DNA of 64,000 bases from Niameybacter massiliensis. Its GTDB lineage: Bacteria; Bacillota; Clostridia; Lachnospirales; Cellulosilyticaceae. Where the stretch lies: assembly GCF_001282685.1 (NCBI RefSeq), contig NZ_LN875035.1, positions 910,250 to 974,249 of the forward strand, given 5' to 3'. Positions 14,952 through 47,765 of this stretch are shown here, piece after piece. Each line of letters starts with the position of its first letter. Position 1 is the stretch's first letter. Under the pieces are notes generated by a model. It did no database searches, was not told the DNA's origin, and saw only the letters and a program-made list of their open reading frames with translations. The position numbers and the translations under genes were made by a program.

Positions 14952-15196
14952 TAAAAAAGAGCATTCTCCTCCTAAGGACGAAAATGCTCGCGGTACCACC
15001 TTAATTCCAGCTATCACTGGCTCTTTATGCTATAACGGGCCTACCCGCTACTTTCTACTAAATTTCAAAAGTAGTGCTCCAAAGCTACCTTCTAATAGTC
15101 TTATCGTAAGAAACCTTTCAGCTTATAAGTTTCTCTCTCTAAACGCAGGGGCTATTATACTCCTCTTCTTCATTGCATGTATTTCGATATGATATT
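14952..15196 (-). promoter_or_regulatory. T-box leader, valine-type
   Basis: Minus-strand leader with the hallmark T-box AAGGTGGTACCGCG (14989-15002) that pairs with the uncharged tRNA 3' end. A terminator hairpin follows (arms 14959-14965 and 14983-14989, then a U run). Upstream are a stem III-like CGGGTAGGCCCG element and a Stem I with AGGAGTA and AGAGA motifs. In the Stem I 3' strand, GAAGGTAGC offers GUA (15086-15088) as a valine specifier followed by a purine. The valine reading agrees with valS downstream; the exact specifier was placed by eye. Confidence 0.93.
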
Positions 15197-43451: not shown

Positions 43452-44771
43452 TTATAGTGCTATATTAATCGCTACATTTATAGCTAAATTGCCTATTTCC
43501 TGATCTATTATTTGCCTTAATTCTTTCGCTTCAAATAATTGTTCTGGCGTTTGTACCATAAATGAAACCTTTAATTTTTTCATTTTACCACCCATTAACT
43601 TTAGAGCGGATAACTTCATTGTATTAATAAATAATTCTTTTTGCTCTGGTTCTCTTAAATAGCGATATGGATAAACTAAATGCAAAGAAATTTTAGATTT
43701 ATAAATCTCATCTATGAGTTCATTAAAATAATTATACACTTGATAATAAGGATCAAATTGATCGCCCATATCACAATAAGGATTAAGTATAATTTCTGTT
43801 CCCTCTAAATCAAGGGGTTCCATCTGTTTCATCTGTAATAAGTGCTTATATAATTTACTACTACTCGTTTCTTTACGCTCTTTAATATGATACTTGTCCA
43901 TAAATTTCTCTAAAACCTGTTCATCACATACTCGGGTATACTCATCTTCTAATTGCCAACTTTCTGCACGCCACGTTTTAGGCGCCTTTTTAAAGTACCT
44001 TTTAAAAAGACTATAAAAAGATTTCATATCATAAATCCCTACTAAATTAGCAATCTCTGTCATACACAAGCTATAATCTAGCATGTAACCTTGGATCATA
44101 ATTAGCTTACGATACTGTACAAAATCTTTAAAATTAACACCACCCACTTTTTTCATGAACTGAGAAAAATAAGTAGCATTCATGTACAATTCCTTTAAAA
44201 TATCCTCTACCATTATCTTTTCATTTGTATGCTTCATTACATATTCTACAATCCAATAATACCTATCTTGTAATTTCCCTGTTGGGTATTCCTCTTCCTC
44301 TTTCATATGAGATATCAATTGATAAGAACTAAATAACATATGCACAAGATGCTGCTCATTTAGCTTTCTTTCCTCCACTCGATCTGCCTTATCTAAATCC
44401 TTTTCATAGAAATATTGACGGATTAATAAATCCATCACAACCTTATTTAATCTATTTTTTAATGGTCTATTAATATCTAATAGCTCATCATTATTCATAA
44501 ACTCTACATACTCCATCTTATCAAAGATATCCCTAAACTCAGATAAACGTATTTTAGCAGATAAGATATAAGCCCCTTCACTTTGAATACTATGTACAAT
44601 ATAACGATTAACTAATGTAAATTCACCTTCATTGACTGTTACGACACGTTCTACTTTTTGAATAGTAATACTTCCTTTAAGAACAAGAATAATCTCTAGA
44701 TCGTCTTCAGAGAAGTGAGGTTTTATAGTCTGTACATATAACATTGTTGATTTTACTCGATTTTCTGTCAT
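43452..44771 (-). CDS. AraC family transcriptional regulator
   Basis: Regulator of 439 residues. The N-terminal part (about 10-90) is cupin-like (HFSEDDLEIILVLKGSITIQ). The AraC DNA-binding domain spans about 180-280, with TYFSQFMKKVGGVNFKDFVQYRK for the first helix-turn-helix and IANLVGIYDMKSFYSLFKRYF for the second. A further 150-residue C-terminal region (from about 300) is not part of standard AraC proteins and may bind an effector. It stands immediately upstream of the SLC13/sulfotransferase pair and is the probable regulator of that pair. Confidence 0.9.
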   Translation of the reverse strand: MTENRVKSTMLYVQTIKPHFSEDDLEIILVLKGSITIQKVERVVTVNEGEFTLVNRYIVHSIQSEGAYILSAKIRLSEFRDIFDKMEYVEFMNNDELLDINRPLKNRLNKVVMDLLIRQYFYEKDLDKADRVEERKLNEQHLVHMLFSSYQLISHMKEEEEYPTGKLQDRYYWIVEYVMKHTNEKIMVEDILKELYMNATYFSQFMKKVGGVNFKDFVQYRKLIMIQGYMLDYSLCMTEIANLVGIYDMKSFYSLFKRYFKKAPKTWRAESWQLEDEYTRVCDEQVLEKFMDKYHIKERKETSSSKLYKHLLQMKQMEPLDLEGTEIILNPYCDMGDQFDPYYQVYNYFNELIDEIYKSKISLHLVYPYRYLREPEQKELFINTMKLSALKLMGGKMKKLKVSFMVQTPEQLFEAKELRQIIDQEIGNLAINVAINIAL

Positions 44772-44881: not shown

Positions 44882-44915
44882 AAAAGGCATCATCCTATTA
44901 CAGATGATGCCTTTT
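44882..44915 (-). terminator. Intrinsic terminator of the candidate ncRNA
   Basis: Perfect 13-pair stem AAAAGGCATCATC with GATGATGCCTTTT and an eight-base loop; UUUUGUU follows on the minus strand. No protein gene ends upstream of it within 800 bases on that strand, so it needs another transcript to terminate. Confidence 0.85.
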
Positions 44916-45486
44916 ACACATTCTCTTTTTACCCTTTTACTGCCCCTACTACCATACTTCTCTAAAATACCATTGCAACAAAAGCCAACCTAAGTTGCCC
45001 CCTCTCCAAAATCATAGGCAAACTTAAGTCGGCTTTGTTGGTGACATGATTTACTAGAATTCATAGTAGAAATCTCATCAACTATTCTATATGTAATAGA
45101 TTGGTGTGCTCCTTCCTAGCCGATTCTCGTTCTTACTAAACGCCTGGTAACCCTGCCGGTGAAAGAGGTCGCAATGACTTTACACCATTAATCGTCTGGC
45201 CATTTGTAACTCATAAAACGTACTATCCGTTTCACTAAAACCTATTACCATCTAGTCATTATTGACTTGATTATGTGATTGAATCCTTTTAAATCCATAT
45301 TCATCAGTTACTTTACTGTCACCGTCAAAGCACTGAACCTAAGAAAAAAGTGATTGACTTCTGGGAGAGGAGGCAGAAATATTCCTCTTTCTTCTTAGTG
45401 GTATAGTTTCTACTACTTATCTAGAATAGCAGCTTCTCTATACTTTTATATTAGATAACCTGTAATTAAATGCTGTGTATCTTGAT
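44882..45486 (-). ncRNA. Candidate independent structured ncRNA gene, about 600 nt
   Basis: Gene-free block bounded by a promoter at its 5' end and an intrinsic terminator at its 3' end. Inside, 44981-45038 forms a 19-pair stem (AAAGCC...GGCTTT ends) whose G-U pairs on the minus-strand RNA would be A-C mismatches on the plus strand, which fixes the strand. A second stem lies near 45033-45080 (GATT and TACTA with TAGTA and AATC), and others involve CTATT/AATAG and GAGGA/TCCTC. The core CACCGGCAGGGTTACC near 45148-45163 is partly shared with 35730-36527. No good ORF exists. Size recalls OLE and ROOL RNAs, but I cannot assign a class. Confidence 0.55.
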
Positions 45487-45492
45487 ATATAG

Positions 45493-45521
45493 AGTATATA
45501 ACTTTTAATCTATAGGTACAA
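45493..45521 (-). promoter_or_regulatory. Promoter of the candidate ncRNA
   Basis: TTGTAC (45516-45521) and TATACT (45493-45498) with a 17-base spacer on the minus strand; start near 45486. It lies about 120 bases after the glmS terminator and does not precede any protein gene closely. Confidence 0.65.
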
Positions 45522-45642
45522 TTGATAAACATTACAAAATAAATTCTTAGATTATGTACAATAAAAAGGTTGTCTTTTTCAAAACGCTTCTTCGAAATCA
45601 AGAAAGTGAATTTCTAGATTTGACATAAAAATGCTAAATAGC

Positions 45643-45686
45643 AAAAAAGTGCACAATTATATAAAATAATCTTGTGCACTTTTTTA
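45643..45686 (-). terminator. Terminator after glmS
   Basis: Stem AAAAAGTGCACAA with TTGTGCACTTTTTT and a 15-base loop; U run on the minus strand. Confidence 0.93.
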
Positions 45687-45749
45687 TTTTATAACGTACT
45701 AGCTTAAAACCTCATCGAGATTATAATACACCATCATACATTTCTTACT

Positions 45750-47579
45750 CTATTCAACTGTTACCGATTTTGCTAAGTTTCTTGGTTTATCTACATCAAG
45801 ACCTTTAAGGGTTGAAGTATAGTATGCTAAAAGCTGAGTAGGAATAACAGATAAAATAGGCATAAGAATATCGCATACTGCTGGAACTTCTATTATTTTA
45901 TCTGCCACATGCCCAATATGTGGTGTGCCTTCTTTAGCAATTGCTATAACATAGGCTCCTCTTGCTTTTACTTCCTTCATATTAGAGATCATTTTTTCTG
46001 CTAGGCGCTCTTGTGTCACAATAGCAAGGACTGGTGTCCCTTCTTCAATAAGAGCTATTGTACCGTGTTTTAATTCACCTGCTGCAAAGGCCTCTGTATG
46101 AAGATATGAAATCTCTTTTAATTTAAGTGCTGCTTCCATAGCTGTTGTATAGTCTAACCCACGACCAAGGTAGAATGCACTTGTTGCCTCTACAAGTATT
46201 TTAGCTACTGCTTCAATAGTTTCTTTTCCGCTTAAAATTTCTTCCACTTTGTTCCCTAAGCCTTCAATAGCATCTACATAAGCTACATATTCTTGGTCTG
46301 TAATCGTTCCTTTTGTGTTTGCAAAATGTAATGCTAACATATAGAATGCTACAAGCTGAGCTGTATAAGCTTTTGTTGAAGCTACAGCAATCTCAGGACC
46401 TGCCCAAGTGTAGAATAAATCATCTGCTTCACGTGCTACAGATGAACCTACTACGTTGGTAATAGCAAGTACTCTTGCACCTTTACGTTTTGCTTCTTTT
46501 AGAGCTGCTAAAGTATCCGCTGTTTCTCCTGATTGTGAAACAACAATAAGAAGTGTCTTGTCATCTACAAACGGATCACTATATCTAAATTCTGAAGCAA
46601 TATCAACTTCTACTGGTATACGTGCTAATTTTTCAATTGCATATTTACCTACTAAACCAGCATGGTATGCAGTTCCACATGCAACAATGTAGATTTTATT
46701 TAGTTCATCTAAATCTTCTTTTTGAAGTTTAATGTCGTCTAATTGAATATGACGTTTTTCATCTAGACGTCTACATAGTGTTTCACGAATAGCTGTTGGT
46801 TGATCATAGATCTCTTTCATCATGAAATGGCTGTATCCATTTTTAGATGCTGCTTCTGTATCCCAGTCAATATGTGTAAGTGTTTTACTTACTACATTTC
46901 CTTCTAAATCTTGAATACGTAACTGTCCTTTTTGTGCAATAATAACTTCATTATTATCCATATAATAAACATCTCTTGTAAAACCAAGTAATGCTGGAAT
47001 ATCTGAAGCAATTACATATTCATTGCCCTTTACACCAACTACTAAAGGGCTCTCTTTTCTTGTGGCGATTAAAGTATCTGGATACTTACTACTAATAATA
47101 CCTAAAGCGTAAGCTCCTTTAAGTCTACCTAATGTCTTATACACTGCACTTTCAAAGTCACCTTCATCATATAAATCAATAAGGTGTGCTACAACTTCTG
47201 TATCTGTATCAGAAACAAAGATATAACCTTTTTCAATAAGTTCATGTTTAAGCTCTAAATAGTTCTCAATGATACCATTGTGTACAACTGCAATTGTTCC
47301 TTCTGAATTAAGATGAGGATGGGCATTTTCTTTTGATGGCACGCCATGAGTCGCCCATCTTGTATGTCCAATACCAATATGACCATCTAAACCACTTTCT
47401 TGTACAGTTTCTTCTAAAACCTTAAGTCTACCTTTTTCTTTGATACACTTTAAGTCCTCATGTTCATCAATAACAGCAATTCCTGATGAATCATATCCCC
47501 TGTACTCGAGTGCGCTAAGCCCCTCTAAAATAATGTCTCTTGCACTGTGTTTTCCATAAAATCCAACAATTCCACACAT
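45750..47579 (-). CDS. glmS: Glucosamine-6-phosphate synthase (glutamine-fructose-6-phosphate aminotransferase)
   Basis: Makes glucosamine 6-phosphate from fructose 6-phosphate and glutamine, the entry to amino-sugar and wall precursor synthesis. The 609 residues start MCGIVGFYG, giving the N-terminal catalytic Cys after Met removal, followed by the class II amidotransferase domain (GHTRWATHG). Two SIS sugar-binding domains follow, with VSQSGETADTLAAL and the C-terminal DKPRNLAKSVTVE that closes the active site. AGGAGG precedes the ATG. A glmS ribozyme lies directly upstream, giving product-feedback control. Confidence 0.98.
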   Translation of the reverse strand: MCGIVGFYGKHSARDIILEGLSALEYRGYDSSGIAVIDEHEDLKCIKEKGRLKVLEETVQESGLDGHIGIGHTRWATHGVPSKENAHPHLNSEGTIAVVHNGIIENYLELKHELIEKGYIFVSDTDTEVVAHLIDLYDEGDFESAVYKTLGRLKGAYALGIISSKYPDTLIATRKESPLVVGVKGNEYVIASDIPALLGFTRDVYYMDNNEVIIAQKGQLRIQDLEGNVVSKTLTHIDWDTEAASKNGYSHFMMKEIYDQPTAIRETLCRRLDEKRHIQLDDIKLQKEDLDELNKIYIVACGTAYHAGLVGKYAIEKLARIPVEVDIASEFRYSDPFVDDKTLLIVVSQSGETADTLAALKEAKRKGARVLAITNVVGSSVAREADDLFYTWAGPEIAVASTKAYTAQLVAFYMLALHFANTKGTITDQEYVAYVDAIEGLGNKVEEILSGKETIEAVAKILVEATSAFYLGRGLDYTTAMEAALKLKEISYLHTEAFAAGELKHGTIALIEEGTPVLAIVTQERLAEKMISNMKEVKARGAYVIAIAKEGTPHIGHVADKIIEVPAVCDILMPILSVIPTQLLAYYTSTLKGLDVDKPRNLAKSVTVE

Positions 47580-47599: not shown

Positions 47600-47765
47600 T
47601 TGATCAGGGGGAACTCACTCAAGATGTTTTGTCCTCTAAGTCACCTTATAGATTTGTCATCTTGTTAGGTTGTGATCCCTCTAGAGCATCCGCCGAATTT
47701 TCGATAACTCTAGTCCTCGTCAACTTGATCGCTTCAAGTTCTGGCGCTTTATTCATTTTTTCCCC
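47600..47765 (-). promoter_or_regulatory. glmS ribozyme/riboswitch
   Basis: Minus-strand leader with AAGCGCCAGAACTTG at its start, GTTGACGAGGA and TCGGCGGATGCTCTAGAGGG in the core and a CACAACC element, all characteristic of the glmS ribozyme. Self-cleavage is expected between 47748 (A-1) and 47747 (G+1) when glucosamine 6-phosphate binds. A 3' helix (ACATCTTGAG region) and the glmS ribosome site follow. Confidence 0.95.

Follow-up and report, generated by a model that had tools for sequence, protein, structure and literature searches.

The window, a stretch of 64,000 nt from Niameybacter massiliensis, carries glmS (45750-47579) and an AraC-type gene (43452-44771) on its minus strand, and the interval between the two holds a single open reading frame of at least 30 aa (45446-45601, 51 aa), which lies mostly upstream of the RNA considered here. 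An earlier note on this DNA had described the block as gene-free and as a candidate for an independent structured RNA gene, and indeed no protein gene is found in the interval beside this one short frame. The call of an RNA gene holds, and the RNA in the window is one of many copies of a family, a larger picture than the one first given. The predicted RNA body, taken as the block that is conserved across the paralogues, extends over about 510 nt of the minus strand (44976-45487) and not over the 600 bases or so proposed before, and a profile built with the window copy among its sequences matches 44975-45473 on the same strand with an E value of 6.9e-66. At about 45640-45690, downstream of glmS, a terminator-like palindrome belonging to that gene is recognised by eye; it is absent from the list of the terminator scan. 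Elsewhere on the minus strand of the window, a purine riboswitch (2286-2387), a T-box leader (14971-15182) and the glmS ribozyme (47610-47759) score above their Rfam gathering thresholds.

On the 5′ side of the RNA, the minus strand has a -35-like hexamer TTGTAC (45516-45521) and a -10-like hexamer TATACT (45493-45498) at a spacing of 17. These hexamers, put forward earlier as the promoter, are present as described, but with a score of 8 out of 12 they stay under the cut-off of the promoter scan and are not listed by it, and the scan gives 11 sites against 11.4 in shuffles, no excess. Their weight comes from the recurrence of the pattern in other copies and not from the scan: TTGNNN-17-TATA[CA]T stands at the same place in three other full-length copies of subfamily A, as TTGAAA-17-TATACT in c2442, TTGTAA-17-TATACT in c3300 and TTGCAA-17-TATAAT in c2075. 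Near-consensus hexamers of the sigma-A type precede c10_668 (TTGACT-17-TATAAT) and c1155 (TTGACA-17-TATATT). Several other copies have in common the motif GACGRATT-N8-20-GTATRTATA, which occurs at 7 distinct places genome-wide (9 rows), each time with a copy following within about 100 bases, and the reversed-pattern control returns 0 sites. As these copies themselves supplied the pattern, the informative part of the search is the absence of other sites. The motif, part of which falls inside a possible 5′ hairpin in subfamily C, is an unproven candidate promoter, and the sigma factor of the phage-like cassette described below may be what reads it. A further upstream block, GAAATTCACTTT..GATTTC (45587-45625, minus), precedes the start of the RNA by roughly 100-140 bases; in alignments it is shared with c2075 and several subfamily B copies, and it could be a regulator site or a remnant.

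On the 3′ side, a conserved hairpin (44976-45042, minus) is the likely 3′ end of the RNA, with termination there being predicted. Its stem at 44981-45038, which had been singled out for pairing preserved through G-U on the minus-strand RNA, is real and covarying, with 304 Watson-Crick, 30 G-U and 2 A-C cells over 21 copies on the proposed strand. The end of transcription had been placed further downstream, at 44882-44915, where a perfect 13-bp inverted repeat of terminator-like form does exist on the minus strand, but it lies outside the shared unit and is missed by the terminator scan because its T-run lies inside the stem. In BLASTN against the host genome the other copies stop aligning beyond about 44963 (query positions 645-658); the shared block ends just past the hairpin, and the repeat is therefore not part of it. 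From the sequence, the conserved hairpin is more likely than the downstream repeat to form the RNA 3′ end. A VVGAVKG-stop stretch outside the RNA (44929-44952, minus) gives a 25-base match at 96% to a permease-type gene end in a relative (G023; gene identity by eye), which is likewise trailed by a terminator-like hairpin, and these eight codons are tentatively read as a remnant of the C-terminus of a sugar ABC-permease.

A paralogous family in the host genome

BLASTN of the block against the host genome (G000; 4,574,943 bases in 11 contigs) returns 5 further places, and diverged copies used as queries return still more. R2, a covariance model built from the 3′ domains of 21 copies, gives 60 matches in this genome, reduced by hand to 34 distinct places in view of the palindromic hairpin. 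The set extracted for analysis comprises 27 copies, 26 with both 5′ and 3′ parts and one (c1347) without the 5′ half; outside it stand the places at C11:1348699, 2601290, 2810069, 1361825, 1368357, 2506753 and 1306672, which look partial or hairpin-only. The full-length pieces span 461-571 bases, and their identity is about 51-96% within subfamilies and mostly 40-50% between them, with the architecture kept throughout. Three copies or parts of copies lie within 3-4 kb at C11:2599813-2602826 (L105 2814-5827), another three within the same distance at C11:1344899-1348787 (L106 2900-6788), and two adjoin each other at C11:2612772-2613929 (L173 3772-4929), an arrangement that suggests local duplication. 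The full c3300 copy has, at a distance of about 230 bases, a fragment from a copy of a different subfamily (L003, about 2236-2330).

The majority of copies stand alone among unrelated genes, the L005 copy being near the RNase P RNA and the L110 copy between genes that by eye are of flagellar type. Within flanks of up to 2.5 kb, shorter at some loci, proteins of a phage-like cassette flank 4 of the 27 copies. At C11:374536 and C10:280155 the cassette consists of a divergent sigma factor, a replication-initiation/DnaD-like protein, the RNA and an Amidase_2 endolysin; the cassette at C8:5610 is without the amidase, and at C11:2997819 the amidase is the sole cassette protein. Beside copy c9_57, 117 bases remain of the end of the replication gene (80% identity). 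An amidase near c2599 is a weak match (29% over 55 aa, E 0.004) and is not counted. Near the cassette copies, inspection by eye and a scan of nine proteins recognise no capsid or integrase genes, inspection by eye recognises no packaging-motor genes, and a partly visual inspection recognises no nuclease or reverse transcriptase. At one full cassette, an Abi_2 (abortive infection-type) gene (L112 1096-1827, minus) lies about 4 kb away from the RNA.

Covarying homologues, by which the earlier note had proposed to judge its candidate, exist, but only as paralogues in the same genome. Searches of limited sensitivity, with no congeneric genome among those searched, found no convincing homologue outside it; the family need not be confined to this genome, as very near records may be missing from the collections. 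In 40 relatives, BLASTN with the window copy gives one short hit, the end of a permease-type gene, and R2 under stricter filters gives weak hits at 7 places in 6 genomes, which on reading are ordinary hairpins, most with T-runs. In the 23 other genomes of the bacterial family, a model R1, which carries a sub-alignment fold unlike the whole-RNA fold and misses even copy c10_412, gives 0 hits, and a search with a further copy gives 3 short hits that were rejected after reading. Two copies used as BLASTN queries on 245 other genomes of the order, a weak search in which 2 candidates were scored per genome, yield 6 short hits, and the one that was read is a histidine-kinase-like coding region. With three queries for each collection, blastn finds no match in 50,697 phage records or in 72,556 plasmid records. 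A pattern of the 5′ half has 0 occurrences in the genome_contigs and viral_contigs collections, and patterns run in the viral collection (IMG/VR) give 0, apart from one with 8 loci that are all unrelated on reading.

Fold, strand and loop complementarity

The terminal stem is paired in 99.4% of 336 cells over 21 copies, with changes on both sides in 9 of its 16 pairs, and controls slid along the alignment are 21-60% paired. None of 500 shuffles reaches the observed values on four of five measures, and 42 of 500 do so on the number of pair types. For subfamily C, a full-length structure from 7 copies contains 144 pairs, 36 of them with both-side changes, and is paired in 92.5% of 999 cells, compared with 35-43% in slid controls, these pairs being counted on the same alignment from which the structure was derived. 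The shuffles give 0 of 500 on four of five measures and 6 of 500 on pair types, figures that here and for the terminal stem overstate significance as the paralogues are related to one another. When subfamilies A and B are each aligned and folded on their own, the main elements seen in C reappear: P1, P2 and its pyrimidine loop, a third stem that includes GGUGRCA, the central hairpin GUG..CUUUCAC and the 3′ hairpin. In the window copy, P1 pairs GUAUAG (45438-45443) with CUAUAC (45401-45406, minus) and encloses the conserved UUCUAGAU/UCCUAGGC motif in the consensus folds of A, B and C; in the subfamily folds it is built around UCCUAGG/UUCUAGA, and it is not recovered in the consensus fold of the two-copy group B2. 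P2 follows in the consensus folds as the hairpin CUAAGAA...UUCUUAG with the pyrimidine loop (45338-45400, minus), and the central hairpin, GGUGUAAAGUC..GAC..CUUUCACC (45158-45186, minus), is a highly conserved core.

The argument for the minus strand holds, since G-U pairs are kept and A-C combinations are nearly absent in the terminal stem (30 against 2). Folding energy alone does not settle the strand. Folding of the window block beats 20 shuffles on both strands with z about -4.2 each, and over the copies the mean z is -4.6 for the RNA strand and -3.8 for its complement; in absolute terms the RNA strand has the lower folding energy in 9 of 27 copies and the opposite one in 18, and RNAalifold gives the lower energy to the RNA strand for subfamily A and to its complement for subfamilies B and C. 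The promoter-like sequence sits on the 5′ side of the RNA, a comparable search having been run on that side alone. A decayed protein gene across the block would have contradicted the RNA reading, and none spans it. Gap lengths and stops oppose coding: internal gaps have lengths indivisible by three in 42 of 45 cases in the subfamily A alignment and 69 of 75 in that of C, each of the three RNA-strand frames has 6-20 stops in the six copies checked, and the longest stop-free stretch on either strand of the 27 copies is 124 codons (c9_57), with 41 in the window copy.

The P2 loop and the loop of the 3′ hairpin are complementary to each other. In the window copy the pyrimidine loop CCUCCUCUCCC (45363-45373, minus) is the 5′ partner and the purine loop GGAGAGGGGG (44998-45007, minus) the 3′ partner, and across the family 7-13 contiguous pairs, with G-U allowed, are found in 26 of 26 copies, c1347 being left out of this and the other long-range tests as its 5′ half is absent. 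The letters vary by subfamily, with CCUCUCC facing GGAGAGG in the window, CCCUCUG facing CAGAGGG in c10_412 and CCUCCCUCUU facing AAGAGGGAGG in c10_668. Own partners average -19.3 kcal/mol compared with -15.7 for partners from other groups, and 0 of 100,000 permutations of loop partners over 14 groups are as good as the observed pairing. The own 3′ loop is the single best of 26 for only 5 copies and ranks from 1 to 16, in a ranking that includes one misassigned loop (c2998). The loops are thus specific on average and not copy by copy. There may be a second long-range helix, between GGUGACA (45317-45323, minus) and UGUCACC (45040-45046, minus); this form is found in subfamily A and GUGGC.. with ..GCCAC in the others, and 26 of 26 copies reach 6 or more contiguous pairs when G-U is counted. 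In permutations over 9 groups 135 of 20,000 are as good, and two registers tie in several copies. Copy c1347 has UAUUACU at the 3′ strand of this helix, as would be expected if the strand is no longer constrained because its 5′ partner is missing.

Known classes, function and origin

The candidate had been left without a class, and a cmscan search, the check suggested at the time, agrees, with no Rfam family matching the window copy or 20 others (21 of 27 copies) and, over the block, chance-level hits only at permissive thresholds (E up to 5). The few hits at the loci of other copies fall far below gathering scores and were rejected; some overlap a copy, for instance RefA9, which lies opposite in strand to the L020 hairpin, and mir-3927 on the L006 hairpin. 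Within the same 21 copies the ROOL, GOLLD and OLE models give no match, nor do those of HEARO and of group I and II introns, which the Rfam library used presumably includes; the nine proteins scanned beside the cassette copies contain no IscB/IsrB-type ORF. For raiA there is no cmscan match in a library from which the full raiA model may be absent. With a length of over 400 nt, several domains, covarying helices and no coding, the RNA is a large ornate bacterial RNA, a descriptive kind and not a formal family; it is uncatalogued, and it is unusual in its copy number, co-evolving loop pairs, upstream motif and cassette.

ROOL forms an octameric RNA nanocage and is encoded by phages or prophages, often near tRNA islands; OLE is about 600 nt long and usually present as a single copy near fixed neighbours; the phi29 packaging RNA has 174 nt and multimerises by loop-loop pairing; and C-rich anti-Shine-Dalgarno loops are typical of Gram-positive sRNAs such as RsaE. 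In the present family 4 of 27 copies are beside phage-like genes, among which no capsid genes are recognised by eye. The family shares the CCUCC/UCCC loop with sRNAs of the RsaE type, but the RNA is several times longer and its loop is complementary to its own purine loop. Like the phi29 RNA it combines loop-loop pairing, here predicted, with a link to phage; it is longer than the 174 nt of that RNA, and no packaging-motor genes are recognised by eye near the cassette copies. It resembles GOLLD as a large ornate RNA with phage links and OLE in its elaborate fold and similar size, and differs from both in that the 21 copies scanned do not match their Rfam models. Measured against ROOL as portrayed in PMC12286853, it is alike in size range (a 659-nt example), multi-domain fold, predicted loop-loop contacts and the phage-like surroundings of some copies, and unlike in consisting of many divergent, mostly solo paralogues in one genome and in lacking an Rfam match (21 copies). 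That paper describes ROOL and GOLLD as homo-oligomeric cages with kissing loops and OLE as a dimer, regards the functions of all three as poorly understood, and takes the ROOL, GOLLD and OLE profiles from Rfam and that of raiA from a custom model (PMC12286853). The listings and abstract openings of the open-licence PubMed Central literature contain no description that we could find of such a family.

Building on the observed copies, covariation, loop complementarity, cassette and upstream motifs, we consider it probable that the block is a minus-strand gene for a non-coding RNA of about 510 nt with its own promoter and a 3′ hairpin end, one of a paralogous family of loop-closed scaffold or particle RNAs that may derive from a phage cassette. 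A large independent structured RNA gene, as first proposed, is the best reading of the covariation, the recurring promoter-like sequence, the missing coding signal and the lack of an Rfam class. Each RNA would start at its own promoter, end at the strong 3′ hairpin and fold into several domains closed by long-range contacts, the main closure being the predicted pairing of 7-13 bp between the P2 loop and the loop of the 3′ hairpin. Because the loop pairs co-evolve, this closure would be either intramolecular or intermolecular among like RNAs, the latter being homotypic as in ROOL and GOLLD; the two modes fit the sequences alike. Action as a scaffold or particle is speculative and draws on analogy with ROOL, GOLLD and OLE. 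A more far-reaching version holds that some two dozen large RNAs form subfamilies that are at least partly orthogonal, in which each loop pair directs its own homotypic RNA-only particle, with seeding by a phage cassette, a private promoter (GACGRATT-N-GTATRTATA) that the cassette sigma factor would read for these RNAs alone, and an endolysin that could release the particles from the cell; this version is unlikely, the more so as the own loop is the best partner for only 5 of the 26 copies.

The main functional rival to the scaffold reading is a family of anti-Shine-Dalgarno regulators, in which the C-rich P2 loop (CCUCC/UCCC) would bind Shine-Dalgarno sequences of mRNAs, the purine loop would mask it until release, and each paralogue would have targets of its own. 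In favour of it are one loop rich in pyrimidines and the other in purines in all 26 copies despite the changes in letters, the CCUCC/GGAGG character that the loops retain while co-varying, the good pairing of non-cognate loops (-15.7 kcal/mol) and the failure of the own partner to be the single best in most copies. A multi-domain fold of 460-570 nt, however, far exceeds what a C-rich-loop sRNA needs, and target binding requires no cognate bias, and we hold this explanation to be possible yet doubtful. It is quite improbable that the copies are a DNA-level dispersed repeat or a non-autonomous mobile element whose palindromes mimic RNA structure. The 34 dispersed places, the clusters of neighbouring copies, the fragments and the cassette copies would fit a repeat, but the excess of 30 G-U over 2 A-C, the compensatory changes, the promoter-like sequences on the 5′ side and an old divergence with the structure intact do not.

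A very diverged member of ROOL, GOLLD or OLE that the Rfam models miss would account for the similar size, for the phage-like neighbours of a few copies and for loop-loop contacts of the kind that PMC12286853 describes for ROOL, but against this stands the permissive cmscan of 21 of 27 copies, which found no match to any of the three, and we give the idea very little credence. An intron without an open reading frame, a HEARO/omega guide RNA or another mobile RNA of ribozyme type would likewise be multicopy, large, structured and dispersed; the absence of intron and HEARO matches in Rfam and of any nuclease or reverse transcriptase recognised, partly by eye, by the cassette copies makes this highly improbable. 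The position of the block between glmS and the AraC gene, on the same strand as both, could point to an untranslated leader or trailer of one of these genes or to a decayed protein gene, but the paralogues adjoin unrelated genes, gap lengths and stops oppose coding and glmS appears by eye to have a terminator-like palindrome of its own downstream, and this is the least credible of the readings. More than 20 divergent paralogues in one genome, each with a matched loop pair, are unusual material: they permit structure inference from a single genome and allow self and non-self RNA assembly to be compared directly, and the cassette proteins together with the private upstream motif offer a genetic handle on the role of such RNAs.

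The family may have arrived with a phage-derived cassette and then spread, most copies now being solo. The presence of cassette proteins by only 4 of 27 copies, plus one remnant of the replication gene, and the occurrence of the replication-initiation-like protein in relatives that are without the RNA (G008, G009, G022 and G019; L211-L214, L217-L221) count against the main reading. In the host genome itself, the replication-initiation-like gene is also found at C11:505483 and C11:2162614, among repressor-like genes and with the RNA not nearby. Searches with RNA profiles over 22 replication-protein loci and 14 stretches, two of the latter from the host genome, find no RNA. At two of the loci in relatives (L217 and L220), a sigma-factor-like ORF, recognised by eye, is located a few kb from the replication-initiation-like gene, so that the pair of sigma factor and replication protein may be older than the RNA. 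The replication-initiation-like protein is present in 7 of 40 relatives, at 20 viral loci and in two genome_contigs records, a Janthinobacterium MAG and Iodobacter.
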